Assembly (NCBI GenBank): GCA_024709165.1
Contig: JANJXF010000018.1
Span: 1-37,414, forward strand
Origin: Thiobacillus sp.
GTDB taxonomy: Bacteria > Pseudomonadota > Gammaproteobacteria > Burkholderiales > Thiobacillaceae
Reading direction: 5' to 3'
DNA: 37,414 bases
This document shows, piece by piece, positions 5,894 to 29,643 of the stretch (its first letter is position 1; the number at the start of each line of letters is the position of its first letter). The notes below the pieces were generated by a model. It worked only from the letters and a program-made list of their open reading frames with translations, ran no database searches and was not told the DNA's origin. Made by a program: the position numbers and the translations under genes.

Positions 5894-5906
5894 CGCCACG
5901 CCCATC

Positions 5907-9337: not shown

Positions 9338-9388
9338 TCCACGCTGGCCTATCGGAGTAATATCACCACCCGACATAGAGAGTTCCCC

Positions 9389-12166: not shown

Positions 12167-12227
12167 CACCGGTTGAAACGGCGCTGCCGCGCGGAGCCAC
12201 CCCATTGCGCAACGGAGCACAGAACAC

Positions 12228-15005
12228 ATGACCCGGCATCCCATCGCTCTTGCCATCGCTGCTGTCCTTGGTGCATCCGTGCCGCTATATGGATGTAACC
12301 GCGTCGCCAGCCTCACCGAACAGGAACACATTCAGCGTGCCAAGGATTTCGAGGACAAGGGCCACCTCAAGAGCAGCATCGTCGAGCTGAAGAACGCCAT
12401 CCAGAAAAACCCGGACAGCCCGCAGGCGCGGCTCCTGCTCGGGCAGATCTACCTGAAGGCCGGGATGAACGCCGAGGCCGAAAAGGAACTCACCCGCGCC
12501 GAAAAGCTCGGCGTCAGCCGGGAAAGCATCAAACTGCAACTGGGCGAGGCCCTGGTGAATATGGGCGAGTACCAGCGGGTGCTGGAGGAAATCCAGCCTG
12601 GCGAACAGAGCTCCGGCCCCAACCTCGCGCGTATCCATCAACTGCGCGCCGACGCGCTGCTCGGTCAGGGGCAGCTGAAGCCGGCATGCGAGCTGTTCCA
12701 GCGATCGCTCGACACCGACCGCAACAATCCTGCAACCTATTGGGGTCTGGCCCGCTGCGCCATCGCCGAACGCAACGTGCCGGCCGCCCAGGCATGGCTC
12801 GATGCCGCACTCAAGCTTCCGGAGAAGCAGGCACGAACCTGGGTGTTCATCGGCGATCTGAAGCAGGTCAGCAACGACATCGAGGGTTCGCTGTCGGCGT
12901 ATTCAAGTGCACTGAAAATCGATCCTGCGAACCTCGGTGCATTGCAGAGCCGCGCAACCATCAACACCGTGCTGGGCCGCCTGGAACCCGCGCGGACCGA
13001 CATCAAGACCATACGCGAGTTGTATCCAAAGACCACTGCAGCCAACTATCTCCAAGCTTTCCTCCACTTTGCGGAGAAAAAATATCCGGAGGCACGCGAG
13101 CCCTTGCTGGAAGCGCTCAAGACCGCCCCCGACCACCTGCCCAGCCTGTTGCTCGCCGGCCGCATTGAGTCTGCCCTCGGTAATCTGCAGATGGCCGAGA
13201 CGTATTTCGGCAAGGTGCTCAGAATCGTACCGCGCAACGGCTTTGCGTTGCGGGCGCTGGCAACGACCCAACTGCGCCTGGGGCGTCCGGACGACGCCGT
13301 GAAAACCCTCGCCCCGATCGATCTCGAAAACTCCGCCGATCCCGGCCTGCTGGCCCTCGCTGGCGACATCGCCGTGGCGAAGAAGGATTTTTCCCGAGCC
13401 GCGTACCTGTTCGAAAAGGCTGCCGAACTCAGTCCCGGCAGCGCAGCCATCCGCTCGGAACTCGGCATGGTTCGCCTGGCGCAGGGCGACGACCGGGCAA
13501 TGGATGACCTGCAAGCTGCCGCCCGCATGGGAGGCGCAACCGAAGAAGTCGACAGCGTCCTCATCCTGAGCCAGATCAAGAGAAGGCAGTTCGATGCCGC
13601 GCTCGACAGCATCGCGCGCCTGGAAAAGAGACAGCCCCAGGATCCTCTCGCACGGTATTACCGCGGCGTCGCCCTGCTGGGGAAGGATAACAGTGCTCAG
13701 GCACGCAGCAGCTTCGAACAGGCGCTCACGCTCGACCCAGCATTCTTGCCGGCCGTGACGAGCCTCGCCGCTCTGGACGTGCTGGACAACGAGCCGGAAG
13801 TCGCCCGCGCACGCTTCGAAGCGCTGCTGAAAGCGGACGCAAACAATGTGCGCGCGATGATGGCCCTGGCGGATCTCGCAGCATCGCGGAACAACGACGC
13901 GGAGCAGGTGAAGTGGTTGGAGAAGGCCATGAAGACCGATCCGCGCACCCTCGCCCCGCGCAGCAGCCTGATCCAGCGCCATCTTGGGAAAAAGGAACCT
14001 GGCAAGGCACTCGCACTCGCCCGTGAGGCCGTCGATGCCGCCCCGGAAAGTCTCGCGGCACAGAGTTTGCTCGGCACGACACAAATGGCTGCCGGCGAAG
14101 CGGAAAACGCCGTCGCCACGTTTACCAAGCTCGCACAAAAGCGGCCAGATTCCGTGGACCTCCAATTACGTCTGATTCTGGCGCAGGTGGCTGCGAAGAA
14201 ATATGCCGAGGCGCGCACCACACTCAACCGATCCCTGCAAAGCAACCCCGACAATCTGCAGATGCTGGATACCCTGATGCGTCTCGAACTCGCCGACAAA
14301 AAACCCCAGGTCGCGCTTCAAGTGGCCCAGCAAATACAGAAGCGGCAGCCCAGGTCTCCTGTCGGCTACGACAGGGCGGCCGACATTCTTTCTTCGCTAA
14401 AGCGCCACCCGGAAGCCATCACGGCCTACCGTCAGGCGCTCGCACTCGGCGCGCCCACGGCAACGCTGGTCAAGCTCCTTGGCGTCATGACGGTTGCCGG
14501 CGACCGGAAGGGCGCGGAAAATTTCCTTGCGACCTGGATCACGCAGCATCCCGATGATCGGGAAGCACGGCGCTATGCAGCACAGCTATACACGCGCAGC
14601 GGCAGGAACAAGGAAGCCATCGCGCAGTTCGAGGCGTTGCAACACAAGTATCCCGACGACGTCGCGGCCATCAACGATCTCGCACTTCTCTACCAGCTCG
14701 AGAAGGACGCCCGGGCACGCCCCACCGCCGAGCAGGCGCTGCGGCTCGCCCCCGACAACGCAGCGGTTCAGGACACGCTGGGCTGGATTCTGGTGGACGA
14801 AGGCCAGTTCAAGCGTGCGCTCGAACTGCTTGGAAAAGCCAGCGCCAGGGCGCCCAAGGTCGGCAGCATCCAGTACCATTACGCCGTCGCCCACGCGCGT
14901 TCCGGCAACAAGGCCGAGGCGAAGAAGCGGCTCAGGCAGCTGCTCGGTTCAGACGCGAAATTTCCGGAACGCACGGACGCAGAGAAGCTGCTCAACACAC
15001 TCTGA
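12228..15005 (+). CDS. PrsT-like TPR-repeat lipoprotein (copy 2)
   Basis: Also 925 residues, with a signal peptide ending in PLYGC (lipobox) followed by TPR repeats throughout. It aligns end to end with the preceding PrsT: both have the segments RAKDF/KARQS...IVELKNAIQ, RLAQGD.RAMDDLQAAA, DNxAVxDTLGWILVxEG and a C-terminal RxLLGS. This points to tandem duplication with later divergence. A GGAG lies 13 bases before the ATG. It is followed after five bases by a permease gene, so this copy, unlike the first, is coupled to the transporter genes. That could mean the copy has been recruited to the ABC system (inference). Confidence 0.88.
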   Translation: MTRHPIALAIAAVLGASVPLYGCNRVASLTEQEHIQRAKDFEDKGHLKSSIVELKNAIQKNPDSPQARLLLGQIYLKAGMNAEAEKELTRAEKLGVSRESIKLQLGEALVNMGEYQRVLEEIQPGEQSSGPNLARIHQLRADALLGQGQLKPACELFQRSLDTDRNNPATYWGLARCAIAERNVPAAQAWLDAALKLPEKQARTWVFIGDLKQVSNDIEGSLSAYSSALKIDPANLGALQSRATINTVLGRLEPARTDIKTIRELYPKTTAANYLQAFLHFAEKKYPEAREPLLEALKTAPDHLPSLLLAGRIESALGNLQMAETYFGKVLRIVPRNGFALRALATTQLRLGRPDDAVKTLAPIDLENSADPGLLALAGDIAVAKKDFSRAAYLFEKAAELSPGSAAIRSELGMVRLAQGDDRAMDDLQAAARMGGATEEVDSVLILSQIKRRQFDAALDSIARLEKRQPQDPLARYYRGVALLGKDNSAQARSSFEQALTLDPAFLPAVTSLAALDVLDNEPEVARARFEALLKADANNVRAMMALADLAASRNNDAEQVKWLEKAMKTDPRTLAPRSSLIQRHLGKKEPGKALALAREAVDAAPESLAAQSLLGTTQMAAGEAENAVATFTKLAQKRPDSVDLQLRLILAQVAAKKYAEARTTLNRSLQSNPDNLQMLDTLMRLELADKKPQVALQVAQQIQKRQPRSPVGYDRAADILSSLKRHPEAITAYRQALALGAPTATLVKLLGVMTVAGDRKGAENFLATWITQHPDDREARRYAAQLYTRSGRNKEAIAQFEALQHKYPDDVAAINDLALLYQLEKDARARPTAEQALRLAPDNAAVQDTLGWILVDEGQFKRALELLGKASARAPKVGSIQYHYAVAHARSGNKAEAKKRLRQLLGSDAKFPERTDAEKLLNTL

Positions 15006-15010
15006 GAGAC

Positions 15011-16285
15011 ATGGCCTTGAAGCCTGCTGCGGATACCGGCAAGGGGCCGGGGGCGACCTTCGGCTTCCTGCTGGTCGACTCGCGGCTGGCCCTGCGCAAC
15101 GTGCTGCGCCAGAAACGGCGCAGTTACATCGCGATTCTGGCGATCGCCTTCGGCGTCGTGGCGATGATGTTGTCCGCCGGTTTCATCGAATGGATCCTGC
15201 AGGAAACCCGCGAGGACGCCATCGCCAATCAATACGGCCACATCCAGATCATCAGGCCGGGCTACCACGACGCGGGGCAGGCCGATCCCTTCGCCTTCCT
15301 CCTGCCGGGCGCCGACCCCGCGCTCTCGGTGCTCGCGCGCACGCCCGGCGTCGCAAGCGTGGCGCCACGCCTGCAATTCACCGGCCTGGTCAGCCATGGC
15401 GAAAGCACGCTGTCGTTCATCGGCGAGGGTGTCGATCCGGAAAATGACCCGGCGTTACGCAACCTGCACGTCGTCAAGGGCAAACCACTTGGCCGGGACG
15501 GTGGCCGGGAAATCCTCATGGGAGTGGGGCTGGCCGACAATCTGGGCGTCCGCGTTGGCGACACGGCAGTGCTGCTCGTCAATACCCCGAGTGGCGGCAT
15601 CAATGCCGTGGAAGGCAAGGTGATCGGCCTGACCTTCACCGCGATGAAAGCCCTCGACGATTCCGTCCTGCGGATCCCGATCGACATGGCGCGCGAGCTG
15701 TTGCGGGTTTCCGGATCGCATGCGTGGATCGTAACGTTGCAGCATACCGGGATGACCGATGCGGTACTCGCCCGGCTAAAAGGCGAGGACGCGTTCCGCG
15801 CCTACGGAATCGTGCCCTGGAGTGAGCTTGCGGACTTCTACAACAAGACCGTCGAGCTTTTTTCCAGACAGATCGGCGTGGTCAAGCTCATCATCGCCAT
15901 CATCATCGTGCTGGGCATCAGCAACACCATGACCATGAACGTCATGGAACGCACCGTGGAAATCGGAACCGCCATGGCTTTGGGTGTCCGGCGGCACAGA
16001 ATCCTCGTGCTGTTCCTGCTGGAAGGCCTGCTGGTCGGCCTGCTGGGCGGCGCCATCGGCATCACCGTCGGCTATCTGCTCGCGCTTGCGGCCTCGGCGA
16101 TCGGCATCCCCATGCCGCCTGCGCCCGGCATGACCGAGGGATTCGACGCCGCCATCGTCGTCACGCCGGACATCGTCCTGGATGCGCTGGTCCTTTCCAT
16201 CACGACGACCCTGGCTGCCAGCATCTATCCGTCGTGGCGGGCTTCGCGCCTGGTGATCGTCGAGGCACTGCGCCACAACCGTTGA
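15011..16285 (+). CDS. ABC transporter permease, MacB/LolC-like (FtsX domain), first of two
   Basis: A 424-residue inner-membrane permease. A cytoplasmic N-terminus (RLALRNVLRQKRRSYIAILAI) leads into TM1 at about residues 37-60. A large periplasmic MacB-type core domain follows (about 65-280). Three C-terminal helices form the FtsX domain, with VVKLIIAIIIVLGISNTMTM, LEGLLVGLLGGAIG and the closing helix before YPSWRASRLVIVEALRHNR. This mechanotransmission topology is shared by LolC/E and MacB, which move lipoproteins or other envelope substrates without transporting through the membrane themselves. The gene is five bases after prsT copy 2 and eleven before the second permease. The ATPase partner is probably at 19083-19829. 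Confidence 0.9.
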   Translation: MALKPAADTGKGPGATFGFLLVDSRLALRNVLRQKRRSYIAILAIAFGVVAMMLSAGFIEWILQETREDAIANQYGHIQIIRPGYHDAGQADPFAFLLPGADPALSVLARTPGVASVAPRLQFTGLVSHGESTLSFIGEGVDPENDPALRNLHVVKGKPLGRDGGREILMGVGLADNLGVRVGDTAVLLVNTPSGGINAVEGKVIGLTFTAMKALDDSVLRIPIDMARELLRVSGSHAWIVTLQHTGMTDAVLARLKGEDAFRAYGIVPWSELADFYNKTVELFSRQIGVVKLIIAIIIVLGISNTMTMNVMERTVEIGTAMALGVRRHRILVLFLLEGLLVGLLGGAIGITVGYLLALAASAIGIPMPPAPGMTEGFDAAIVVTPDIVLDALVLSITTTLAASIYPSWRASRLVIVEALRHNR

Positions 16286-16296
16286 GCATCCCGCCC

Positions 16297-17508
16297 ATGT
16301 GGAAACTTGCCCTGCGAAATGTCCTGCGCCACAAAAGCCGGTCCGGCATGACCCTGCTCGCCATCATCACCGGCGTGGCGGGCCTCGTTCTCAGCGGCGG
16401 CTTCATCCACGACATCATCGAACAGTTCGGCGAGAGCCTGATCCATTCGCAGACCGGCCATCTCCAGCTCGCGCGCAGCGGGTATTTCGCCCACGGAACA
16501 CGCAGCCCCGAAAAATACGTCATTAGCGATCCGGCGCCCGTACGCGAAGCGGTCGCCAAGACGAAAGGCGTGGATGACGTCATGGGCAGGCTGTATTTTT
16601 CGGGCCTGCTCAACAACGGCCGTTCGGACCAGCCCGTGGTGGCTGAAGGCGTCGAGCCCTCGCGCGAAGCACGCCTCGGCACCGGCATGGTCGTCGCCGC
16701 AGGCCGCATGCTGCAGGATGCGGACAGTCACGGCATGATGATCGGCCAGGGACTTGCGCGCACCCTGAAACTGAAACCCGGCGATTTCGCCACCGTGGTG
16801 ACGAACACCGCCGACGGCGCCATGAACAGCCTCGAGTTCGAAGTCGTCGGCGTCTTCCAGACTTTTTCCAAGGACTACGATGCGCGGGCCGTGCGCATCC
16901 CCCTGGCCGCCGCCCAGGAATTGCTCGCCACCTCGGGGATCAATATCCTGGTCGTCTCGCTACACCACACGAACGACACGCGGCCGGTGGCGTCCGCGCT
17001 CGGCGCGGTCCTGCGCACAGCGGGCATGGAGATCAGGACCTGGGTGGAACTCAATGATTTCTACACCAATGCCGTCGCAATGTACGAAGCGCAGTTCGGC
17101 GTGCTGCAGGTCATCATCCTGCTGATGGTGTTGTTGAGCGTGGTCAACAGCGTCAACATGACCGTCTTCGAACGGGTCGGCGAATTCGGCACCATGATGG
17201 CCCTGGGCAACCGCGGTCGCATGGTGTTCCGCCTCATCGTTGCGGAAAGCACCATCCTGGGACTGGCGGGCGCGGGACTCGGCGTTGTCCTGGGGATCGT
17301 CCTCGCATTGACCATATCCGCCGTCGGCATTCCCATGCCCCCACCGCCCAACGCGGACCTGAGCTATATCGCCCGCATCCAGGTCGTGCCTGCGGTCGCT
17401 GCCGGCGCCTTCGCGGTGGGATTGTTCGCCAGCGTCGTCGCCGCCCTGCTGCCGGCCGCACGGGTGCGCACGATTCCGGTGGTGGACGCGCTGCGCCAGA
17501 ACGTCTGA
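16297..17508 (+). CDS. ABC transporter permease, MacB/LolE-like (FtsX domain), second of two
   Basis: A 403-residue permease with the same architecture as its neighbour: MWKLALRNVLRHKSRSGMTLLAIITGVAG (TM1), a periplasmic core, then VLQVIILLMVLLSVVNSVNM and two further helices, ending ARVRTIPVVDALRQNV. The ATG at 16297 is chosen because the homologous WKLALRNVLRHK begins there; a longer frame from 16234 would overlap the first permease. The two permeases share motifs (ALRNVLRxK, SAVGIPMPP) and probably form a heterodimer. The gene ends only ten bases before the convergent DUF1302 gene, with no terminator visible between them. Confidence 0.9.
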   Translation: MWKLALRNVLRHKSRSGMTLLAIITGVAGLVLSGGFIHDIIEQFGESLIHSQTGHLQLARSGYFAHGTRSPEKYVISDPAPVREAVAKTKGVDDVMGRLYFSGLLNNGRSDQPVVAEGVEPSREARLGTGMVVAAGRMLQDADSHGMMIGQGLARTLKLKPGDFATVVTNTADGAMNSLEFEVVGVFQTFSKDYDARAVRIPLAAAQELLATSGINILVVSLHHTNDTRPVASALGAVLRTAGMEIRTWVELNDFYTNAVAMYEAQFGVLQVIILLMVLLSVVNSVNMTVFERVGEFGTMMALGNRGRMVFRLIVAESTILGLAGAGLGVVLGIVLALTISAVGIPMPPPPNADLSYIARIQVVPAVAAGAFAVGLFASVVAALLPAARVRTIPVVDALRQNV

Positions 17509-17518
17509 CCCCTGCGCG

Positions 17519-19081
17519 TCAAAAATCGCGTCGCAGCTCGGCGTACACCCGGTCGTTGGCGTCGTACTGGCCAAAAATGCCGGTCGGCGGTCCCTTGAAG
17601 ACATCCAGACCGAAAACCGCGCGCCAGTCGCGCTGGAACTTCCATGTCGCCTTGGGACGCAACAGCCAGTCGCTCCGGTTCAGACTGCTGATCAGCAGCA
17701 CATCCGCCTCCCATCCGCGCGGCAGATCGCGATGCACCAGGATGGAAAAGCCGTTCTCGAACCTGTCGAAATTGATGTCCGGTTCGTGATCGAAGTACAC
17801 GCGCTGGAAGAACTGGGTGTTCAGGCGCGTGTCGGACGAAGGGTTGAAGTCCAGGCCCGCCGCCCAGTCGAGCGTGTTCTGCACGACCACGCCGTCGCTG
17901 TCGATGAGGTTCGTCACGTTGAACCGCCGCCCGTCGGTATACACGGCCTCCCCCTTGAGGACGAACGAACCGAGATCCTTCGCCAGCGTTCCGCCCGCCT
18001 GCCAGATTCGCCTGTGAACGGGCGTGAAGACGTTCTGCACCACGGCATCGCGCAGGAAGGTGGGCGCGCTGTCCATGCTCGAATAGTAGAAGCCCGACAG
18101 GTCCCAGCCGCCGACGAGGCGCGACAGGCGCGCCCCGAAATTGGTATGCTCGAGCCCGTTGCCGGGTTTGACTTCCTTCCTGACGACCGGCATGCCTGCA
18201 GGCGACAGCGGATACGGGTAGAAGTCCGTCCCCGCACCAGGTTTGCCGGCATCCAAGGGTTCGCCGATCTCGTCATATCCGGCGAACGGGACCCACACCA
18301 GTTCGGCATGGAAATCGCCGCCGAAATACTCGCTGCGGACCGCCCATTGCGGGATGCGCAGGATCTGGAAATCGGGCAGGATGAATTCCCTCGAGTCCTT
18401 CACCGAAACGACATCGGCGAAGAACAGGCCGACCATCTCGCCCCACACGACATGCTGACGGCCCACGCGCCATTCCCAGTCGCCGGTGGCGAAGTCGACA
18501 TAGGTCTCCCGCAGCTGCAAGTTCAGGCGCTGCTCATCGCCCACCCCCGAGTGATAGAAGTCGTTCAGGTCATACACCGGGTTGTAATCGACACGGCCGC
18601 TCAGCTTCCACTTGGCGCCCTGGCCAAATCGCCCTTCCGTGGCAAGCTCCAGGCGCCCCAGCACCTTGGACCAGTGCCGCGGATCGCCATAGGTCCAGGC
18701 CAATTCGCTCTGGAAATAGCCGTGCACCGGCATGCCCTGCGCGTCCCCAGCTTGTTTTTCCGCCTTGCCAGCCGGATGTCCGTCGCCGAACAGTGCATCG
18801 CGCGTGGCCGGCATCCCCGGGTCGGGCGCGGGCTGCTGCGGTTTTTCCGCCGCCGGTTCGAGCGCGAACAGATCGTCTCGCGTTGCCGGCCCGGCAGGCT
18901 GCTTGGTTTCGTCCCTGGCAGCCGGTGCAAGCTCGAACAGCGCATCCCGCGACATGGGCAGCTCCGCACCCTTGTCCGCGACAAAAACCCGTCCGCCGAT
19001 CCCCTCGACGTTTCCGGCAAGTCCCACGGCGGGGGCGCTGCACGCCAGCAAGCCCAACGCCGGCATCAATCGCCGCCTCAT
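17519..19081 (-). CDS. DUF1302-like outer membrane beta-barrel protein with three (S/T)RD(A/D)LF repeats
   Basis: A 520-residue secreted protein. The signal peptide spans about residues 1-22. A low-complexity Pro/Ala linker (about 40-115) contains three spaced copies of one motif: SRDALF (44-49), TRDDLF (67-72) and TRDALF (93-98). From about residue 118 it has alternating aromatic strands and DUF1302-type signatures (WRVGRQHVVWGEMVGLFFADVV, KDSREFILPD), and it ends in a terminal Phe (AELRRDF), as expected for BAM-inserted barrels. The start at 19081 follows GGGAGAGG and lies one base after the ATPase stop, so the two genes are coupled. It is probably the outer-membrane part of the ABC system; the substrate is unknown. 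Confidence 0.85.
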   Translation of the reverse strand: MRRRLMPALGLLACSAPAVGLAGNVEGIGGRVFVADKGAELPMSRDALFELAPAARDETKQPAGPATRDDLFALEPAAEKPQQPAPDPGMPATRDALFGDGHPAGKAEKQAGDAQGMPVHGYFQSELAWTYGDPRHWSKVLGRLELATEGRFGQGAKWKLSGRVDYNPVYDLNDFYHSGVGDEQRLNLQLRETYVDFATGDWEWRVGRQHVVWGEMVGLFFADVVSVKDSREFILPDFQILRIPQWAVRSEYFGGDFHAELVWVPFAGYDEIGEPLDAGKPGAGTDFYPYPLSPAGMPVVRKEVKPGNGLEHTNFGARLSRLVGGWDLSGFYYSSMDSAPTFLRDAVVQNVFTPVHRRIWQAGGTLAKDLGSFVLKGEAVYTDGRRFNVTNLIDSDGVVVQNTLDWAAGLDFNPSSDTRLNTQFFQRVYFDHEPDINFDRFENGFSILVHRDLPRGWEADVLLISSLNRSDWLLRPKATWKFQRDWRAVFGLDVFKGPPTGIFGQYDANDRVYAELRRDF

Positions 19082-19082
19082 T

Positions 19083-19829
19083 TCACCTCTCCCGTTTTTC
19101 ATGTGAATTCCGTCCCGTCCTGACTTGCTGCCAGCGGTCATCCACCTTCACCGCCAGCTTCGCCAGATGGCCGTCCTCGATGCGCACGAGACGATCCGCC
19201 ATGGCCATGACACGTCGGTCATGCGTGGAAAATATGAACGTCGTCGCGTAGCGGCGGTTGATTTCCTTCATCAGGTTCAGGATCTCCTGCCCCGTGTGGC
19301 TGTCCAGGTTCGCGGTGGGCTCATCCGCCAGCACGATGCGCGGATTGATCGCCAGGGCCCGGGCGATCGCCACGCGCTGGCGCTGGCCGCCGCTCAACTG
19401 GTTCGGCACGTGGTGGGCGTATTTCTCCAGCCCCACCAGCGCAACGTAACGCCGTACCCGCTCGCGCCGCTCGGCCTTGTCGACCTCGGGGATCTGCAAC
19501 AGGGGATATTCGACGTTCTCCGCCACGTTCAGTACGGGGAACAGGTTGAAGGTCTGGAAAATGAAGCCGATGGTCCGCGCGCGCAGATCCGCCAGAGCGT
19601 CGGAAGACAAGCCCGTGACTTCCCTGTCGTCGATGAATACCTTGCCGCGCGTGGGGGTGTCGATGCAACCGATGATGTTCAGCAGCGTGGTCTTCCCGCT
19701 TCCCGAGGGACCCGCAATGGCCAGGAACACCCCTTCCTCGATGGAGAGTGTGATATCTTGAAGCGCGGTCACCTTCTGTTCGCCAAGCAGGTATTCCTTG
19801 GCAACCGCCTCGATACGCACCAGGCTCAT
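19083..19829 (-). CDS. ABC transporter ATP-binding protein, LolD/MacB type
   Basis: A 248-residue ATPase with Walker A GPSGSGKT (40-47), Q-loop in FIFQTFNLFPVL, signature LSGGQRQR (145-152), Walker B IVLADE (165-170), D-loop and switch histidine in FSTHDRRVM. It is of the LolD/MacB/FtsE class that pairs with FtsX-type permeases. Two such permeases lie on the opposite strand at 15011-17508, so this is the likely motor of that transporter, split across a convergent junction. A basic tail of about 25 residues (ending SHEKRER) extends past the usual LolD end. The ATG at 19829 is only 44 bases from the divergent LolA-like gene. Confidence 0.93.
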   Translation of the reverse strand: MSLVRIEAVAKEYLLGEQKVTALQDITLSIEEGVFLAIAGPSGSGKTTLLNIIGCIDTPTRGKVFIDDREVTGLSSDALADLRARTIGFIFQTFNLFPVLNVAENVEYPLLQIPEVDKAERRERVRRYVALVGLEKYAHHVPNQLSGGQRQRVAIARALAINPRIVLADEPTANLDSHTGQEILNLMKEINRRYATTFIFSTHDRRVMAMADRLVRIEDGHLAKLAVKVDDRWQQVRTGRNSHEKRER

Positions 19830-19873
19830 GGCTCTCTTTTCGTATGGCGTCGCTTCATTGGCAGGACTCCCAA

Positions 19874-20650
19874 ATGCGTAACAAATCCGTGGTCATCGCC
19901 GGTCTGCTGTCAGGCTGCCTGGTATTCGGCGCATCCGTTCCCGGCGTTCGCGCTGCCGAGGACACCCCCGCCGAGGATGCCGTAGCGCGCGGGATCCTGG
20001 CCAAATCCGACGGAATCCGCTTTCCCGCGGAGGGTTTCCAGGTCGACATCGACATCACCAGCGCAGCCCCCGACGGCGAAACGGAAAAGCGGAAATACCG
20101 TGTCCTTTCGAAAGGCAACGAGAATTCCGTCGTCATGATACTTGAGCCCGCTTCGGAACGGGGCCAGATCATGCTCATGAAAGGTCGGGATCTGTGGGTG
20201 TTCATGCCCAACGTATCGCAGCCCATCCGTCTCGGGCTCGCACAGCGGCTGACCGGCCAGGTGGCCAACGGCGACCTCGCACGCGCCAATTTCAGCGGCG
20301 ATTATACGCCGCGCATCCTGCGCACCGAGATGCTGCAGGGCGAGGAGCAATACGTGCTGGAGCTGCGCGCCGTCGACCGTGGCGTGACCTATCATCGCGT
20401 GCTGTACTGGGTGAACAAATCCAACCACTGGCCACGCAAGGCGGAGTTCTACGGCGTGTCGGGGCGCCTCATGAAAACCTGCCTCTACGAGAAATTTGAA
20501 CTCATGGCGGGTCAGAAGCGGCCAACCCGTCTGGTGATGGAAGACGGACTCAAGCCGGGGAATGTGTCGGTGCTCGAATACGACGACATGAAAATGCGCG
20601 ATCTGCCAGACAAAGTGTTCTCCAAGGATTATCTGAAGAAACTGCAGTAG
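19874..20650 (+). CDS. LolA-like outer membrane lipoprotein-sorting protein
   Basis: A 258-residue periplasmic protein. The signal peptide (MRNKSVVIAGLLSGCLVFGA... cleaved near VRAAED) precedes a LolA/LppX-like half-barrel: YRVLSKGNENSVVMILEPASERGQIML, LWVFMPNVSQPIRL, YVLELRAVDRGVTYHRVLYWV, WPRKAEFYGVSGRL. The family carries lipoproteins or lipids across the periplasm. The start at 19874 follows GCAGGACT; an in-frame ATG at 19844 is less likely because it would put ten polar residues before the signal. Its position next to an ABC ATPase and near two FtsX permeases suggests it receives the extracted substrate. It is divergent from the ATPase. Confidence 0.87.
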   Translation: MRNKSVVIAGLLSGCLVFGASVPGVRAAEDTPAEDAVARGILAKSDGIRFPAEGFQVDIDITSAAPDGETEKRKYRVLSKGNENSVVMILEPASERGQIMLMKGRDLWVFMPNVSQPIRLGLAQRLTGQVANGDLARANFSGDYTPRILRTEMLQGEEQYVLELRAVDRGVTYHRVLYWVNKSNHWPRKAEFYGVSGRLMKTCLYEKFELMAGQKRPTRLVMEDGLKPGNVSVLEYDDMKMRDLPDKVFSKDYLKKLQ

Positions 20651-21687: not shown

Positions 21688-22671
21688 TCAGGCTGCGCGG
21701 CGACGCATGCTGGCAAGACCGACAAGCCCGAGGCCGAGGAGCGCCAGGGTGGCAGGCTCCGGCACCGAGATCACCGCCGGGTCGTTGCTCACGTAGAGGA
21801 AGGGAGAGAAGGCATCCCCGTTCAGCCAGTTGTGCGTATTTTTTTCGATTTCCGAGGTGGCCACGAACTGCGCGCAGCTGATGGCGGGATTGGCGATTTC
21901 CGCTGCCGTGCAGAGCAGGGTGCCGGTCACGCCGCCCACGATGCTCTCATTCACATCGTTGATCAATCCCAGCGGACCCGCGTTGTAAGAGGGGCCCTGC
22001 GTCAGGAGCGTCAGCGCCAGAAAGCTCTCGGTCGTCGTCGACGTGCCCGGCGCGGTCAGGTCATCGATGGCGTAGGCGAAGTTGTCGGGCGACACCGCGG
22101 CAAGCCCCAGGCTGCCCCAAAACACGCCGTCCGTCGCCAGGGCGATGACGTCCTGCACGCGCGTCACCGAGCCGACGGCGCCGGTGCTCCCCGCGGTGAA
22201 ATCGGTGAAGAGCGTCGTGCCCCCACCGGATTGCGTATACAGGCGGAACATCTCGCCGGCGGCGAGGATGCCGAAGGGATCGGCCGCCACCGTGCCAAAG
22301 GTGATCTGAGCGGCAGGGCCCACCGGGCCGACCGCCGTCACCTCCTGGGCGAAGTAGCCGGTGAACTGGTCCGTCGGCGTGGCCATCCAGGTGCCGGACG
22401 CATAGTTGTTGTTCTGGACGTTGAGGATGCCGGCGAAGATGTCGCCAACCACAACGTTCCCCGCAATGGCCGGATTCACCAGCTGATAACCAGCCGGCCC
22501 GGTGCCCGCGCCCAGACACCCGCCGGCCGCACACGCGGCATCGGAACGGTACTGGTTTTCCAGGTTGTTGTAATAAATGGAATTGCTGCCCGCGCCAAAC
22601 GTGACAGCCTGGGCCCCGCCCGCCGCCACTGCCAGGGACGCCGCCAGCAAGGTCTGCTTGAATGTGGTCAT
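21688..22671 (-). CDS. PEP-CTERM sorting-signal exported protein
   Basis: A 327-residue secreted protein. The signal peptide is MTTFKQTLLAASLAVAAGGAQA. The body is Gly/Ala/Thr/Asn rich with few charges and four cysteines. The C-terminal 25 residues (303-327) form a PEP-CTERM signal: VPEPATLALL, a hydrophobic helix, then the SMRRRAA basic end. Exosortase A would cut there and the protein would be secreted or linked to extracellular polymer. The start at 22671 has GGAG six bases upstream; an ATG at 22683 is in frame but poorly placed. A sigma-54-type promoter lies about 55-70 bases before the start, and a bidirectional terminator follows. No enzymatic domain is recognised; such proteins are implicated in floc or biofilm formation. 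Confidence 0.92.
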   Translation of the reverse strand: MTTFKQTLLAASLAVAAGGAQAVTFGAGSNSIYYNNLENQYRSDAACAAGGCLGAGTGPAGYQLVNPAIAGNVVVGDIFAGILNVQNNNYASGTWMATPTDQFTGYFAQEVTAVGPVGPAAQITFGTVAADPFGILAAGEMFRLYTQSGGGTTLFTDFTAGSTGAVGSVTRVQDVIALATDGVFWGSLGLAAVSPDNFAYAIDDLTAPGTSTTTESFLALTLLTQGPSYNAGPLGLINDVNESIVGGVTGTLLCTAAEIANPAISCAQFVATSEIEKNTHNWLNGDAFSPFLYVSNDPAVISVPEPATLALLGLGLVGLASMRRRAA

Positions 22672-22724
22672 GATCTTCTCCATGTGAATTGCTCGGGCCG
22701 CAAACTGCGGACACGCTAACCAAA

Positions 22725-22739
22725 GCATGCAGCGTGCCA
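22725..22739 (-). promoter_or_regulatory. Sigma-54 (RpoN) promoter of the PEP-CTERM gene
   Basis: On the minus strand TGGCAC-GCTGC-ATGC matches TGGCAC-N5-TTGC with one mismatch and correct GG-N10-GC spacing. It shares every non-spacer base, including the unusual A of ATGC and the following T, with the site at 4446-4461. Transcription would begin near 22713, about 40 bases before the start codon. Confidence 0.77.
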
Positions 22740-22852: not shown

Positions 22853-23806
22853 TCATTCCGAACGTGTCCCGGGCCGGATCGTCCAGTAACGCTCGACCGG
22901 CCCGCCCGCGTAGCCGATACGCGCTGCGTAGGCCCGGTAAAGCCGCTCGCAGTCCGCCGTGTCGGCAAAGAACTCGCGGAACTGGCTGCCATACAGATCC
23001 ATCGCTTGGAGCTTGCGCGCGAAAACGTCACCCAGCGCGGAAACCTGCGGTTCGAGACGCCGCGACGGCGACGAGGTCGCCGCCAGGCGGCGGTGCAGCG
23101 CAATGAGCCGGTACAGATAGACGCCCACGACAGGAAGCGCGGCCCAGCGCACGACAGCAGGTCGGAGGTTCCTCATCAGGGCGGTGTCGGCGTAGGCGGC
23201 GACCGTGGCGCGCCACGCCCGCCCCTCCGGCACAGGCGCCAGCGTGAAATCGTCCTGTTGCAGGGGGTAGGCGCCCAGTTCGTTGAGACGATGGCGCGTG
23301 GCATGGGGAATCAGGCAGTAGGGCGCGTCCTCGTAATGGATCAGCGCGTCCCGGCCGATCCAGGGCTCGAACAGCAGGTGCGTGAGTACGTGGTCCACGT
23401 GCCAGCCGATCCCCAGGGGAACGTACAGACGCTCGTAGTCGACGCCCGCCAGCCAGTCGAACACCTGCTCGCGCAGTGCCGGCAGGTAATCGTCGAGGTC
23501 TTCCCGCACCGGCGGCCTGAAAATGTTGCCGAGCGAACGGTAGGCCGGGCGTCGGAACGATACGTCCAGCTCGCCGAAATTGTGCGATGCGAAACCGAGA
23601 AACTCCGCCGCGGCGGCTTCTTCCCGGTAACGTTCCTCCCCCAGCACGACGGCGCGCAGCTTGACCTCGCCGAGATAGCGGGTGAACAGATTGAGCACCA
23701 GCACCGGGCCTTCCTCGGCCAGCCGGGCGATTTCGCCGCCGCAGGAAAACACGGCGTCGTCCAGGTGGGGCGAGACAAAAACGGCCTTGTAGCGGGGTGT
23801 GCTCAT
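22853..23806 (-). CDS. PIG-L family N-acetyl-sugar deacetylase
   Basis: A 317-residue protein of the PIG-L/LmbE metal-dependent de-N-acetylase family (GlcNAc-PI deacetylase, MshB, BshB). The metal-site motifs are present: SPHLDDAVFSCGG with His14/Asp16/Asp17, and GWHVDHV with His136/His139. It is longer than BshB (about 235), with a C-terminal extension (RLYRAYAARIGYAG). The ATG overlaps the glycosyltransferase stop (ATGA at 23803-23806). A GT4 enzyme followed by PIG-L is the logic of bacillithiol and mycothiol synthesis: add an N-acetyl sugar, then deacetylate. The acceptor here is unknown. It is the last gene of the five-gene operon. Confidence 0.88.
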   Translation of the reverse strand: MSTPRYKAVFVSPHLDDAVFSCGGEIARLAEEGPVLVLNLFTRYLGEVKLRAVVLGEERYREEAAAAEFLGFASHNFGELDVSFRRPAYRSLGNIFRPPVREDLDDYLPALREQVFDWLAGVDYERLYVPLGIGWHVDHVLTHLLFEPWIGRDALIHYEDAPYCLIPHATRHRLNELGAYPLQQDDFTLAPVPEGRAWRATVAAYADTALMRNLRPAVVRWAALPVVGVYLYRLIALHRRLAATSSPSRRLEPQVSALGDVFARKLQAMDLYGSQFREFFADTADCERLYRAYAARIGYAGGPVERYWTIRPGTRSE

Positions 23807-24981
23807 GCACGGCGCCCTCGGATGGCATCACGATAGGCCTGCTCCAACGCCGACACCACCAGTTCAGGCCGATAGGCGTCGGCACGCCGTCGACTGGCCG
23901 CCCCCATGGCGGCGCGCAACCCGGCATCCGCCGCCAGCGCGGCAAGCCGCCCGGCGAGTTCCTGCGGCACATCGGGATCGACGATGTAGCCGTTCACCCC
24001 TGGATCGACCATTTCCGGAGCCGCCACGATGGCGCGGGTGACGATGACCGGCCTGCCGAACCACATCGCTTCCATTGCCACCAGGGGTTGCGCTTCCTGA
24101 ATTGAAGGCAGCACAAACACATCGCATGCGGCGTAATACCGCGCCAGGTCGGGATGATCGAGGAAGCCCAGGAACTCGACTCGCGCATCGACCCCCAACT
24201 GCGTGCAGAGACGCCGCAACGCCTCGTCCTCCGGACCGCGGCCGGCGATCCACAGTACGGCGTCGGCAACGCTCTGCAACAACGTGGCAAACGCCCTGAT
24301 CAGGTAGGGGAGATTTTTCTCCGGCCCGAGGCGCCCGGCATAGAGAATGGTGAAGCCGGGCGTGCGTCGGGCGGGCACGACGTCGGCGGCATCCTCGAAC
24401 ACCACCGGGTTGGTGATGTAGCGCACGGAGGTGCGCACGCCTTCGGCGGCAATCTGTTTGGCGAGATTCTGCGACGGCACAATAACCATGTCGAAACGGT
24501 TGTTGGCATCGACCATCTGTCTGCGGATGAGGCCGCGAAAGGGCCGCATCGGCAGGGGTTGCGTCAGCACCTCGGCGCTGAAATGGTAGGTCGACACCTG
24601 GGGCAGGCGCATGCGCTGGGCGACCGCACACACGCGCCGCATCATGATGCCGACGTAGTGGTGATGCACGACGTCGGGCTTTTCCCGCTCGAGAATGCGC
24701 CGCACGGTGGCGCGGGACGGCAGGGCCTGGTAGAAGCCATACACCTTGACGGTGAAGACGCGGTGTACGGTGACGCCCTGCCACTGCTCCACTTCGGGTT
24801 CGCCCTTGCGCCGCGTCGTGATGACGGCAACCCGGTAGCCGCGCCTGGCAAGCTCCGGGGCGATGAGCTTGAGGTGAACCCCCACGCCGGTGGCCGCCGG
24901 CAGAAAGTCATCCGAAATCATGCAGATGGAAAACGGGCGCGCCAGCGTATCTTGCGTGGCGTGATCGGGTTCGTTGACCAC
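23803..24981 (-). CDS. GT4-family glycosyltransferase
   Basis: A 392-residue GT-B fold enzyme. The N-terminal domain has the acceptor-side glycine loop DFLPAATGVGVHL, typical of GT4. The C-terminal domain has ILYAGRLGPEKNLPYLIRAF and an EX7E donor motif, Glu296 to Glu304 in EAQPLVAME. It probably transfers a nucleotide-activated sugar (GlcNAc would suit the adjacent PIG-L deacetylase, by inference) to a lipid or small-molecule acceptor. The GTG start at 24981 follows the nitroreductase stop with no gap, so it is translationally coupled. It could also be an exopolysaccharide transferase, but no other polymerisation genes are nearby. Confidence 0.9.
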   Translation of the reverse strand: MVNEPDHATQDTLARPFSICMISDDFLPAATGVGVHLKLIAPELARRGYRVAVITTRRKGEPEVEQWQGVTVHRVFTVKVYGFYQALPSRATVRRILEREKPDVVHHHYVGIMMRRVCAVAQRMRLPQVSTYHFSAEVLTQPLPMRPFRGLIRRQMVDANNRFDMVIVPSQNLAKQIAAEGVRTSVRYITNPVVFEDAADVVPARRTPGFTILYAGRLGPEKNLPYLIRAFATLLQSVADAVLWIAGRGPEDEALRRLCTQLGVDARVEFLGFLDHPDLARYYAACDVFVLPSIQEAQPLVAMEAMWFGRPVIVTRAIVAAPEMVDPGVNGYIVDPDVPQELAGRLAALAADAGLRAAMGAASRRRADAYRPELVVSALEQAYRDAIRGRRA

Positions 24982-26067
24982 TCAGTGCACTCCGTTCACG
25001 AACAGCTGCGACAACGGCTTGCGCAACGAGCGGGCCAGCGGGGCGGGGCCATAGCCGATGCGCCCCATGAATACGGTCTGGCGCGCGTCGTCCGCGCCCA
25101 TCCAGCCTTCCATGCGGAGCGCCAGCCGGGCGGCGCGATCCCGGACCGCTTCGACGGCAGTGAACGGGCGTCCCTCGCGTATGTAGCGGGAGAAAATCAC
25201 CGGCGTCATCTCCGGCTGCATGAACAGGCCCAGGCTCGTGGCCACGAGCCACAGACGCTGCAGCGCGCGCCCGGCGGCAACGTAGTCGTCGGTGCCCGCG
25301 GGTGGACGCTCGGCGACGAGGGCGAAGTGGGCGGCACAGCGCAGGCCGGGCAGCAGGTCGAGCTGGAGGCGCGGCATGACGGTGCCGGCGAGCCAGGTGT
25401 TAAGAAATTCGACACGCCCCCAGCTGCGCAATGCCCAACGCATGAGACGCGCCGTCATGGGATCGACGCCGACAGCGCGTTCGGGAACGCGATCCTCGCT
25501 GAAGCGCGCCGCCCATTCGATGATGTCGCGGTGCGTCGGGTAGGCTTCCGGCATGGTGAGGCGGTTTTTCCCGTTGGCCGCCATGAAGCGCGCCAGCGCC
25601 CAGCGCCGTGAAATGCCCTCGAACCATACCAGCCGATAGCCGGGCACGCTGGCGGCAAGCGCCGCCTTGTGCGCGGGATCGAGGGGATGGCGCGACATCG
25701 CGCGGCGTTGCACAGTGCGCCGTTCGATCATCGCGACCAGCGGATCGGCCGCCAATCCCTCGCACGGGGCGAGGTGCACCTCATAAACCGGCGCGCTGTC
25801 CGGACATCCGGGCTGGCGCCGAACGTCGGCGTGCAAGCCCTCGGCCGTCGCGGCAATGGCCAGCGTCTCCAGCAAGGCGCCATGCGCGATCTGGCTGGCG
25901 TGGCCATCGAGGTCGTAGACACAGTGCGTGCGGGTGTCGTGTCCGAACACGCGCAGGCGGTCGTCCGCAAGCACCTCGAAACGCCACGGCTGGGTGTTGT
26001 CACCGCTGGGCGCCCAGCGGGCCAGTTCGAGAATGCGCCGCAGCGACGCGGAGATGGCGGAGTTCAC
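24982..26067 (-). CDS. Nitroreductase-fold flavoprotein, Acg/MoeY-like
   Basis: A 361-residue protein of the nitroreductase superfamily, closest in layout to the Acg (Rv2032) and MoeY (Rv1355c C-terminal half) type. It shows the entry motif LARWAPSGDNTQPWRFEVL and repeated nitroreductase half-domains; near the C-terminus are LVATSLGLFMQPEM and a final GRIGYGP segment. It likely binds FMN, and its substrate is unknown. The start is taken as GTG at 26067, one base after the ThiF stop; a frame extending to 26187 would overlap ThiF by about 120 bases. In MoeY a ThiF domain and this domain are fused in one protein, and here they are adjacent coupled genes. Confidence 0.8.
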   Translation of the reverse strand: MNSAISASLRRILELARWAPSGDNTQPWRFEVLADDRLRVFGHDTRTHCVYDLDGHASQIAHGALLETLAIAATAEGLHADVRRQPGCPDSAPVYEVHLAPCEGLAADPLVAMIERRTVQRRAMSRHPLDPAHKAALAASVPGYRLVWFEGISRRWALARFMAANGKNRLTMPEAYPTHRDIIEWAARFSEDRVPERAVGVDPMTARLMRWALRSWGRVEFLNTWLAGTVMPRLQLDLLPGLRCAAHFALVAERPPAGTDDYVAAGRALQRLWLVATSLGLFMQPEMTPVIFSRYIREGRPFTAVEAVRDRAARLALRMEGWMGADDARQTVFMGRIGYGPAPLARSLRKPLSQLFVNGVH

Positions 26068-26068
26068 C

Positions 26069-26926
26069 TCAGAGTCCCAGTTGCCGCCTGGCGATCGCCA
26101 GTGCAATACGGTTGAGGGGATGGCGGTTGCCGCCCGGACGCCAAGTGTGCGCAAGCCGGTTGCGGTAGGCATCGTACTGGATGCCATGCGGCGCCGCCCA
26201 TGCCCTGCCGCGGCCGAGCAGGAGCTTCAGCGTCTCGGCCGCCGCGACACCGGCGCAGAGCTGGCAGGCGACGACGGTCGACGGCCCCTTGCGCGCCCGG
26301 AGATCGACCCGTGTCCGGTCCGCCAGATAATGCCGGTGCAGCAGGCCGGGGGCGAGGCCCACGAGAAAGCGGATCGCCTTGTCCAGTTCGGCACGGCCGC
26401 GCAACTGAAAATAATCCTCGAAGCTCATATGCCCCGGCAGGAAATTGAGCAGGGCCGCACTCATGCCAAGCGGTGCGACGGTGACGGCGGGAATGCGGCG
26501 TTCGGCGCAGTAGGCGAAGACCCGCTCGCGCGCGTCGAACGCAAAAAAATCGAGGCCGTCGACGTAAAGGTCAACGCCGCGGAAGAATTCGGCAAGATTC
26601 TGCGCATCCACTCCCTGGGGGAAAACCCGGATGTCCGCCTCGGGATTGATGTCGCGCGCCATCCCGGCGAGAACCTCCACCTTGGAGCGACCGAGCGTGG
26701 CCATGCCCGCGCCGGCCTGGCGATTGAAATTGGCGAGTTCGAACTCATCCAGATCGGCGATGCAGAAACGTCCCACGCCCAGCCTTGCCAGGGCGAGAAG
26801 ATGAAATCCCCCCACGCCGCCCATGCCGGCAATGGCCACACACTTGCCGCGCAGGGCCTGCTGCTCGGATTCGGTGGTCCAGCCGATGTTGCGCGAAAAT
26901 GCGGTCGCGTAGTCGAAAGGACGCAT
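26069..26926 (-). CDS. ThiF/MoeB/HesA-family E1-like adenylyltransferase
   Basis: A 285-residue protein with the E1 adenylation fold: GMGGVGG (34-40) for ATP, ADLDEFELANFNRQ (57-70) with the acidic and Asn/Arg residues of E1 enzymes, and YVDGLDFF at the switch strand. Only one CxxC is visible, Cys221-Cys224 in VACQLCAG, and it lies in the crossover helix. The usual pair of zinc CxxC motifs is missing, so it is not a standard MoeB or ThiF. No ubiquitin-like partner ending in GG is encoded nearby, so it may adenylate a small carboxylate (inference). It is 17 bases after the FeeM-like gene and one base before the nitroreductase. Confidence 0.87.
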   Translation of the reverse strand: MRPFDYATAFSRNIGWTTESEQQALRGKCVAIAGMGGVGGFHLLALARLGVGRFCIADLDEFELANFNRQAGAGMATLGRSKVEVLAGMARDINPEADIRVFPQGVDAQNLAEFFRGVDLYVDGLDFFAFDARERVFAYCAERRIPAVTVAPLGMSAALLNFLPGHMSFEDYFQLRGRAELDKAIRFLVGLAPGLLHRHYLADRTRVDLRARKGPSTVVACQLCAGVAAAETLKLLLGRGRAWAAPHGIQYDAYRNRLAHTWRPGGNRHPLNRIALAIARRQLGL

Positions 26927-26943
26927 CTCGGCCCCTCCTGGGA

Positions 26944-27738
26944 TCAGCCCCCCTGAAGACGCCGCGCGATACCCAGCTCATCCGCTTTCGAAAAGCCGTG
27001 AGGGTAAAGCGATTTCTCGCCCGGCGGCGGCGGAAGCACGCCACCCAGTTCGGCGACCTTGCGATCGATGTAAGCCATCTCGATGTGCAGCAGCACGGCC
27101 GGCGCGCCGACCCGGGGGCACATTCTTTCCGGGCCGAGCTGTTCGTAGCCGAGCATTCGCTTGTAGAACAGCACATGGCGCGGATTCACTTCGATCACGA
27201 AATCCGTGTATTTGTGGATGTGGTAGGCATAGATGAAGGCGATATGGAACAACGCCGCGAGCACGGATTTCGACGCCGTGCTCTCGTCGACCGCCAGTTT
27301 CGTCAACTCGGCGACCCGTCTGCCCCGGGCGCGCAACTGATCGACTTCCGTCCGGTAGAGCTCGTCGACCACCAGCCCCGCCGGGCTGTCGAGACCAAGC
27401 GTCACGGTGCCGGCGACCTTGTCTTCCTGATGCGCTACCAGCGTGATCCGGTTGGGATCGCGTCTGACACCGCTGGCCCCGTAGCCACGCCAGCCGTACA
27501 TTTTTTCGATCAGCACGCTGGCCGACTTGCGCCGTTCGTCATCGTGCGCGAGGCGAATCTTGAATTCCTGCCGGCTGACCCGCGTGGTATCGCCGGCCTG
27601 CACCTGACTCTGGTCCAGGCACAGGTCCTTCAGGCGGTACGGCGACTGGAAGGAAACAATGGTCTTGTCCCATTCGTCGGGTTCGCGCCGGTTTCTTCTG
27701 AAACCGAAAATGGGTTTGTGAGACTCAGACATCATCAT
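26944..27738 (-). CDS. N-acyl amino acid synthase (FeeM-like) acyltransferase
   Basis: A 264-residue cytoplasmic protein with a GNAT/autoinducer-synthase-like fold matching FeeM, which joins an acyl-ACP fatty acid to an amino acid. The recognisable core is VAELTKLAVDES, then a helix LFHIAFIYAYHIH, then FVIEVNPRHVLFYKRMLGYEQLGP. A related 'exosortase-associated acyltransferase' group (TIGR03694) exists, and a search is needed to decide between them. Three ATG codons in a row (27738, 27735, 27732) offer alternative starts; a GGA lies six bases before the third. It is the first gene of the five-gene operon, about 105 bases downstream of hemB. Confidence 0.85.
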   Translation of the reverse strand: MMMSESHKPIFGFRRNRREPDEWDKTIVSFQSPYRLKDLCLDQSQVQAGDTTRVSRQEFKIRLAHDDERRKSASVLIEKMYGWRGYGASGVRRDPNRITLVAHQEDKVAGTVTLGLDSPAGLVVDELYRTEVDQLRARGRRVAELTKLAVDESTASKSVLAALFHIAFIYAYHIHKYTDFVIEVNPRHVLFYKRMLGYEQLGPERMCPRVGAPAVLLHIEMAYIDRKVAELGGVLPPPPGEKSLYPHGFSKADELGIARRLQGG

Positions 27739-27843: not shown

Positions 27844-28851
<1,008 letters not shown>

Positions 28852-29639: not shown

Positions 29640-29643
29640 GGAC

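Follow-up and report, generated by a model that had tools for sequence, protein, structure and literature searches.

The described routes to acyl-oxazolones and N-acyl-dehydrotyrosines, OxzAB of Pseudoalteromonas and TyzABC and TrzAS of mycobacteria, use the same FeeM-type acyltransferase, ThiF cyclase and Acg-type oxidase, encoded adjacently or as fusions. In the Tyz system, TyzA N-acylates L-Tyr and L-Phe, the ThiF protein TyzB cyclises with ATP, and the Acg-type flavin oxidase TyzC desaturates with O2 to give C12:0-tyrazolone (PMC10404671); N-acyl tryptazolones arise from TrzAS, cyclisation and desaturation following an obligate order (PMC12856293). The clusters for kyonggic acid, thalassotalic acid and the stieleriacines, whose producers make dehydro-acyl-tyrosines, hold the same N-acyl amino acid synthase (NAS), ThiF and nitroreductase genes together with tailoring genes; the tailoring described is methylation, no oxazolone was seen in the work as presented there, and the main text does not use the terms glycosyl, deacetylase, PIG-L, sugar or exosortase (PMC12479983). 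Here we describe a related operon in a 37,414-nucleotide stretch of Thiobacillus sp. (assembly GCA_024709165.1, contig JANJXF010000018.1, positions 1 to 37,414; hereafter the window). Compared with oxz, tyz and trz, the window adds genes for a family 4 glycosyltransferase (GT4) and a PIG-L-type deacetylase, and neighbouring PEP-CTERM genes. No paper joining GT4/PIG-L to the NAS-ThiF-oxidase pathway, and no glycosylated member of the acyl-oxazolones, came up in searches of open-access PMC full text. We lean slightly towards the view that its product is an acyl-amino-acid lipid tailored with a sugar: an N-acyl (dehydro)amino acid, or an oxazolone, would be glycosylated with N-acetylglucosamine (GlcNAc) and then de-N-acetylated to a glucosaminyl surface lipid.

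The five genes lie on one strand with gaps of 17, 1, 0 and −4 bases by our reading of the sequence. In the order of the minus strand, and followed by the gene upstream of them, they are:

26944..27738, minus strand: FeeM-type N-acyl amino acid synthase (PF21926, E=3e-54, 183 bits, cut-off 27)
26069..26926, minus strand: ThiF/E1-like adenylating cyclase (PF00899, 5e-40; NF006077, 446 bits, cut-off 266)
24982..26067, minus strand: Acg/TyzC-type flavin-dependent oxidase, a nitroreductase (NTR), with a GTG start (PF00881, 5e-10)
23803..24981, minus strand: GT4 glycosyltransferase, possibly GlcNAc-transferring, with a GTG start (PF00534, 4e-39; PF13439, 6e-27)
22853..23806, minus strand: PIG-L/LmbE zinc N-deacetylase (PF02585, 2e-10)
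27844..28848, minus strand: hemB, which in this genus usually stands just upstream of FeeM (PF00490/NF006762)

A preliminary description of this DNA had given the same genes, order, strand and junctions, which the sequence bears out, and a single operon is supported; the profile searches that it had suggested matched all five Pfam families. The five genes are not chance neighbours, because their full order recurs in the nearest genome and in another genus of the same family (see below). A longer oxidase reading frame is possible from an ATG at 26187 and would overlap ThiF. Open reading frames (ORFs) were called with a codon model of our own, for which 14 genes of the window, these five included, served as the training set, so that it gives no independent proof of coding; it missed the window gene at 29013-29650 and placed the start of one PEP-CTERM gene (locus L158) too far downstream, which was later re-read. 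A sigma-70-like promoter was looked for upstream of FeeM in the window and none was found.

The first three proteins were compared with known families and structures. For FeeM, the sole relative in the Protein Data Bank (PDB) at E<=0.1 was FeeM 2G0B (E 8e-11), which together with the PF21926 score upholds the proposed N-acyl amino acid synthase. Its sole NCBIfam match at E<=0.01 was to part of NF011425, a fusion family of 989 positions, successive parts of which match FeeM, ThiF and the flavoprotein. The ThiF-flavoprotein fusion families NF011424 and NF005901 ('Rv1355c') matched too, and NF011424, like NF011425, matched both ThiF and the oxidase. All of these scores fell below the full-length cut-offs, as expected because single domains were compared with full-length families. 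In ThiF, the glycine-rich loop, R69, K82, D123 and D126 are kept in 14 of 14 aligned homologues; the loop, R69, K82 and D126 are presumably ATP-site positions. The nearest structures are TcdA, MoeB and ThiF. A sulfur-carrier E1 (MoeB or ThiF proper) was considered and set aside, since no cysteine is invariant across the 14 homologues and the NCBIfam MoeB/ThiF scores were below cut-off. The oxidase scored 131 bits against NF005901 and 120 bits against NF047509, both below cut-off, and Foldseek of its AlphaFold2 (AF2) model (pLDDT 95) returned the Acg homologue 2YMV as best match, with E 6e-13 versus 5e-5 for the next. The locus therefore holds a FeeM/TyzA-type synthase (PF21926, 2G0B) and a ThiF cyclase (NF006077) that adjoins, across the 1-base gap, an oxidase of the Acg/flavin-dependent oxidase (FDO) group with an Acg fold. 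On these matches the FeeM-ThiF-flavoprotein core corresponds to the biosynthesis of acyl-oxazolones and N-acyl-dehydrotyrosines described for OxzAB, TyzABC and TrzAS. The E1-like carboxylate adenylation and the flavoprotein redox step put forward in the preliminary description are thus supported, and its statement that no described pathway has this set does not hold for the first three genes.

Within the genus the core is fixed and the tail behind it is variable, GT4 and PIG-L being a rare add-on. ThiF was found in 37 of the 60 genomes searched (33/36 of the genus, the window's own included); a set of 80 named loci represents the best 80 of at least 569 confirmed. Among 37 loci from 36 other genomes, FeeM is present in 36, the order HemB>FeeM>ThiF in 27, a detected oxidase in 22, and GT4 with PIG-L in one, that of Thiobacillus sp. 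65-29 (G010). In 15/37 no oxidase was detected within the fetched stretch (e.g. L049, L050, L055, L056 and L064-L066); one of these 15, L035, ends at a contig end. PIG-L was found in 2/60 relatives with the window's genome counted in. Such rarity, and a core that is known to function by itself elsewhere, would suit an ordinary unmodified acyl-oxazolone operon whose GT4 and PIG-L genes arrived by chance or by transfer and have no lasting function. We regard this as improbable, given intact reading frames, a PIG-L identity of 51-88% across two bacterial families, catalytic motifs kept in four aligned PIG-L proteins, and an association that is repeated on a tree of the oxidase.

The clade of GT4/PIG-L genes, with PIG-L more than 50% identical, comprises seven genomes: the window's own, G010, G545 (another genus of the window's family), G798 (Rhodocyclaceae HKST-UBA153, locus L147), G930 and G1154 (both of the family of G798), and G799, a Burkholderiales metagenome-assembled genome (MAG; locus L095). 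The nearest, G010, has a ThiF that is 91% identical and the five genes in the same order at 88-94% identity each, and G545 has all five contiguous at the hemB locus, at 44-81% identity per gene. An uninterrupted run of all five genes occurs in three genomes, which belong to two genera, and one of ThiF-NTR-GT4-PIGL in five; in G798 and G930 the contiguous run is ThiF-NTR-GT4-PIGL-PEPC, the last being a PEP-CTERM gene. In 7/7 genomes no more than 7.5 kb separates the pair from the oxidase gene next to ThiF. G798 and G799 were found through ThiF, and G545, G930 and G1154 by a search with PIG-L only, blind to ThiF; all three of the latter have ThiF-oxidase nearby, the chance of a match within 8 kb in a genome of 3.7-4.2 Mb being about 0.4% each (an estimate). 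PIG-L searches were positive in 3/399 genomes (the window's own, G545, and G463 at 37%), in 3/117 (the window's own, G010, G545), in 3/297 (G798, G930, G1154) and, phylum-wide, in 2/398 (self and one weak match). A distant PIG-L homologue in G087 (37% over half its length) has no such ThiF nearby, and the five neighbours of the GT4/PIG-L pair in G463 that were scanned show no lipid or sortase theme.

On a tree of 66 oxidase rows, a quick tree with long-branch warnings, the seven pair-bearing rows need five changes of state, at least four of them forced by well-supported branches. Shuffled labels gave a mean of 6.8 changes and were as low as observed in 7 of 500 cases, so that the label is somewhat clustered. 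The pair either met ThiF-oxidase loci repeatedly or was lost repeatedly, and the two are together in every genome of the clade that was found. GT4/PIG-L is a coherent recurring module of the core system; it belongs there because of contiguity, proximity in all seven genomes, recovery by the searches blind to ThiF, and the oxidase tree. The preliminary description had held that freely varying neighbours would speak against a pathway: the neighbours of FeeM-ThiF do vary, with the pair in a single one of the 37 loci, whereas GT4 and PIG-L of this clade stay near ThiF-oxidase in all seven genomes in which they were found.

In BshA/BshB, MshA/MshB and eukaryotic PIG-A/PIG-L, a GT4 enzyme adds GlcNAc and an LmbE/PIG-L enzyme de-N-acetylates it, and the suggestion that GT4 and PIG-L of the window are a plausible amino-sugar/de-N-acetylation pair finds support in their relatives. 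The nearest PDB chains of GT4 are 3MBO and 2JJM, then 6KIH, 3C4Q/3C48 and 5D00 (annotated as BshA); we take 3MBO and 2JJM to be BshA and 3C48 to be MshA. Its E-x7-E at 296/304 is conserved. The nearest solved relatives of PIG-L by sequence are the glycopeptide pseudoaglycone deacetylases Dbv21 (3DFI, E 6e-10) and Orf2* (7e-5), and the eight best Foldseek matches of its weak model are enzymes of this kind, in agreement with the sequence ranking. The HLDD and HVDH motifs are invariant in 4/4 aligned PIG-L proteins, as are H14, D16, D17, H136, D138, H139, P162 and Y163, which is the motif set of the Orf2*/Dbv21 type; HxDD and HxDH align to both Dbv21 and Orf2*, and Pro-Tyr to Orf2* only. Residue roles in the zinc and catalytic motifs were taken from PMC4101496, according to which Orf2*/Dbv21-type enzymes, members of the same PIG-L family with HxDD and HxDH zinc motifs, de-N-acetylate GlcNAc borne by a residue of tyrosine type and contain a hydrophobic pocket for the fatty acid. 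The window differs from these systems in that PIG-L is just 17-20% identical to Dbv21 and Orf2* in the Foldseek alignments, the partner glycosyltransferase is a GT4, and the aglycone cannot be such a glycopeptide. We read the pair as adding GlcNAc and de-N-acetylating it because PIG-L lies near glycopeptide GlcNAc deacetylases and the PDB neighbours of GT4 include GlcNAc transferases of the BshA/MshA kind. GT4 and PIG-L would then probably place GlcNAc on the aryl (or other) hydroxyl of an acyl-(dehydro)tyrosine and remove the acetyl group.

The analogy to bacillithiol and mycothiol synthesis drawn in the preliminary description survives in a generic sense only. GT4 matches the BshA (94.3 bits) and MshA (92.8 bits) profiles and structures of that kind, as would be expected if the pair made a bacillithiol- or mycothiol-like small thiol, or a similar glucosamine (GlcN) conjugate, unrelated to the acyl-amino acid; but the cut-offs are 273.7 and 462.5, PIG-L reaches 18.5 bits against BshB1 where 182.5 are required, and PIG-L is nearer to the glycopeptide deacetylases. 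Bacillithiol and mycothiol synthesis was set aside because of these scores. No cysteine ligase is among the five genes (the genome was not searched for one), and the genetic company differs, ThiF-oxidase being constant. A product of this general type is very improbable in our judgement.

In the glucosaminyl lipid pathway that we favour, FeeM would first N-acylate an amino acid, probably an aromatic one, with a fatty acyl group; ThiF would adenylate the carboxylate and close the oxazolone ring; and the Acg-type flavin oxidase would introduce the 2,3-double bond. These three steps, shown for homologous enzymes elsewhere, we infer here. GT4 would then attach GlcNAc to this product, the tyrosine phenol being the simplest acceptor, and PIG-L would remove the acetyl group to leave a glucosaminyl lipid with a free amine, as family chemistry, operon structure and co-occurrence suggest. 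A Lol-like exporter and the XrtA/PEP-CTERM system may finally bring the lipid, together with a companion PEP-CTERM protein, to the cell surface or into the matrix.

Several observations weigh against this pathway, the chemistry of which rests on sequence analysis. The sugar assigned to GT4 is suggested by distant similarity: its best NCBIfam match is the exopolysaccharide glycosyltransferase EpsE (102 bits), ahead of BshA and MshA, behind which come two XrtA-system glycosyltransferases (85 and 79 bits), all below cut-off. The AF2 model of PIG-L, built from four sequences, is poor (pLDDT 62). The acceptor of GT4 may not be an oxazolone, because the related producers, in the account cited above, gave open-chain dehydro-acyl-tyrosines and showed no oxazolone (PMC12479983). 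The pair stands apart from the oxidase by 6.2 kb in G1154 and 4.3 kb in G799, and the distant GT4/PIG-L pair of G463 (37-39% identity) has no such ThiF nearby. FeeM (ACYLTRANSFERASE) adjoins ThiF in three Thiobacillaceae-type genomes and so in just 3/7 genomes with the pair. In G798 and G930 an acyltransferase of 249-250 residues is encoded about 2.6 kb from ThiF, with PF13444 scores of 54 and 60 bits versus FeeM scores of 28 and 32 (cut-off 27):

L147:4681-5430, minus strand: PF13444/FeeM-like acyltransferase, encoded upstream of ThiF on the far side of the FtsX pair
L184:15624-16376, plus strand: the same in the second locus

The FeeM gene of G799 lies on another contig, beside an EpsB homologue (L186), and in G1154 no FeeM was seen in the fetched stretch, a genome-wide search not having been made. 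G798 also has a strong FeeM on another contig (L187), beside genes for an outer-membrane protein (OMP), an ABC ATPase and LolA. ORFs of similar size occur at the position of the PF13444/FeeM-like acyltransferase in several other Rhodocyclales-type loci. The G799 FeeM protein (L186:1961-3295, minus strand) is 444 aa long, matches PilZ weakly at its C terminus (21.2 bits, cut-off 22.5) and is possibly a cyclic-di-GMP-linked acyltransferase.

The preliminary description had also linked the operon to PEP-CTERM proteins, and this link is supported. The features concerned are:

21688..22683, minus strand: companion PEP-CTERM protein (PF07589, 30.7 bits, cut-off 20.7)
22724..22739, minus strand: sigma-54 -24/-12-like site upstream of the PEP-CTERM gene, with one mismatch to TGGCACG-N4-TTGCW
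4446-4461, plus strand: sigma-54-like site just before the EpsB-2 gene, with one mismatch
4499..15005, plus strand: XrtA/PEP-CTERM genes for the EpsB-2 sugar transferase, PrsK, PrsR and two PrsT proteins (TIGR03013, TIGR02916, TIGR02915 and, twice, TIGR02917, all over cut-off)
36828-37277, plus strand: second short PEP-CTERM ORF, at the window end

XrtA is encoded on another contig of the window's genome (367 bits, cut-off 208), so that the genome holds the PEP-CTERM signal, XrtA, PrsT, PrsK, PrsR and EpsB-2 of an XrtA/PEP-CTERM system. FeeM matches no NCBIfam model of a PEP-CTERM/exosortase-associated acyltransferase at E<=0.01; TIGR03694 is a model of that kind. In this, and in its ThiF-oxidase-GT4-PIG-L train, the window differs from the NAS genes already known beside PEP-CTERM/exosortase genes (Craig et al., 2011, as cited in PMC4897644 and PMC11072679). 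The link of NAS to exosortases is itself known.

A PEP-CTERM gene is next to the pair in 7/7 genomes, including the two loci in which ThiF-oxidase is some distance from the pair. Compared without their sorting signals, six of the seven companion proteins form one family (33-87% identity). The seventh, from G799, is unrelated to that family and shows weak similarity only to a protein of L138 (27%); elsewhere in the fetched loci a single PEP-CTERM protein is weakly related to the companion family (L139, 25-28%). A profile search of 297 genomes in the family of G798 found the companion family in three, exactly those with PIG-L; since these three were in the profile, the information lies in the 294 misses. 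More generally, a PEP-CTERM gene occurs within 5 kb of ThiF in 58 of 76 loci that have 5 kb on both sides, where about 4% would be expected per locus from the 10 PEP-CTERM motifs in the 2.65 Mb of the window's genome (an estimate from one genome). The 76 come from 105 loci with non-identical ThiF, L095 being dropped as the same genome as L185; PEP-CTERM was scored by regular expression, and the GT4/PIG-L loci among them were partly chosen for the pair.

This tie between pair and protein would also follow if GT4 and PIG-L glycosylated and de-N-acetylated the companion PEP-CTERM protein, or a bound exopolysaccharide or lipid-linked sugar, rather than the acyl-amino acid. The shared operon could then reflect two pathways that both serve the PEP-CTERM surface system, and the PrsK, PrsR, PrsT and EpsB genes of the window fit such a role, as do the EpsE and XrtA-system glycosyltransferases among the sub-cut-off matches of GT4. 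Yet in five of the seven genomes the pair is contiguous after ThiF-oxidase on the same strand, with the tight 0 and −4 junctions in the window; the PEP-CTERM gene appears to have a sigma-54-type promoter of its own; and in G799 the pair is near ThiF-oxidase even though the PEP-CTERM protein is unrelated. We consider a protein or polysaccharide target unlikely, though well worth keeping in view, and shared service to the surface system as the ground for the operon unlikely to the same degree.

The two sigma-54-like sites listed above are the only ones in the window with one mismatch. In 7/7 loci the companion PEP-CTERM gene is preceded at a short distance by a site that matches at 9 or more of 11 positions, a level of matching reached by 236/5000 random stretches of the length used for six of the loci; for L158 the site was found in a longer stretch than in the other six and after the start had been re-read, the first scan having given 6 of 11 only. 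The window as a whole is not enriched (10 sites versus 8.4 expected), and placement alone is informative. These sites resemble the mapped RpoN-dependent pepA promoter of Aquincola, with -24 TGGCAC (PMC9850573). No sigma-54-like site was found in the four FeeM upstream regions. Because such sites precede the PEP-CTERM genes and not FeeM, control of the PEP-CTERM gene is probably separate from that of the adjacent lipid operon.

If the operon does make the glucosaminyl lipid that we favour, a speculative extension is a bacterial counterpart of glycosylphosphatidylinositol (GPI) anchoring, in which the free amine of a glucosamine-capped acyl-dehydro-amino acid or oxazolone lipid would be the nucleophile that XrtA joins to the cleaved C terminus of the PEP-CTERM protein. 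By analogy, GT4 might play the part of PIG-A, PIG-L that of its namesake, and XrtA that of the transamidase, a casting as doubtful as the extension itself, which we think quite unlikely. It would fit with the one-family partner in six of seven loci that was not found in 294 pair-less genomes, and with the frequent presence of PEP-CTERM genes close to ThiF in general. It would also fit the proposal of an amine nucleophile for archaeosortase (PMC7157517), and the type IX secretion system (T9SS), whose cargo is linked through a sugar made by acetyl removal and amino acid addition (PMC7468200). Such a lipid cannot be a general anchor, because the pair is missing from most related loci that have PEP-CTERM and PrsT genes.

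The recently described lipid class of acyl-oxazolones and dehydro-acyl tyrosines would thus be extended by a probable glycosylation/de-N-acetylation branch, which recurs as a module in Thiobacillaceae, a Rhodocyclaceae-type family and another Burkholderiales MAG and has a nearly one-to-one relation with a dedicated PEP-CTERM protein. The acceptor to which exosortases join PEP-CTERM proteins is given as unidentified in PMC7468200; with its few, well-delimited genes, the locus would allow a lipid, a sugar that may carry a free amine and one partner protein to be studied side by side. The finding bears on flocs and the biofilm matrix, in which PEP-CTERM genes (PMC9850573) and an exosortase-linked N-acyl amino acid synthase (PMC11072679) have reported phenotypes.

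Beyond the PEP-CTERM gene relative to the operon lie transport genes:

15011..20650, mixed strands: Lol-like export block, candidate exporter (by Pfam), with two MacB/FtsX permeases (plus), a DUF1302-like outer-membrane protein (minus), an ABC ATPase (minus) and a LolA-like carrier (plus)
20730-21566, plus strand: EamA/DMT-type transporter between the PEP-CTERM and LolA-like genes, which could be a product flippase

At least one homologous export part occurs within 6.5 kb of ThiF in 7/7 genomes with the pair, and export of the lipid by this block would be the simplest reading. G798 has the system on two separate contigs, FeeM with OMP-ABC-LolA on one and FtsX-FtsX with ThiF-NTR-GT4-PIGL-PEPC on the other, and in G799 GT4-PIGL is directly followed by ABC-FtsX-LolA, the FtsX match being weak (27% identity). 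Parts of the block recur beside ThiF or the oxidase in several loci of the genus and of Rhodocyclales type.

Tails other than GT4/PIG-L were also seen behind ThiF, with methyltransferase and alpha/beta-hydrolase genes or PEP-CTERM genes. In several of the loci without a detected oxidase, the gene immediately following ThiF encodes a PEP-CTERM protein, PepA-like or of another type; cyclisation by ThiF with no oxidase to follow would stop at a saturated oxazolone or an activated acyl-amino acid. In L057, L059, L061 and L063, genus relatives at the hemB locus, FeeM and ThiF are on opposite strands, no oxidase was detected, and an alpha/beta hydrolase, a methyltransferase and a PEP-CTERM protein would make a different tailoring set (Pfam on the L057 genes only). 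Oxidases 26-31% identical to that of the window follow ThiF proteins 64-77% identical in L037-L042, as if the oxidase had been exchanged, and those of L037-L039 are far from the window's on the oxidase tree. Finally, the ThiF ORFs of L099, L105, L106, L117, L139 and L150, from Gammaproteobacteria, an unclassed proteobacterium and a Sulfuricella MAG, are 648-684 aa long, the size of ThiF-oxidase fusions.

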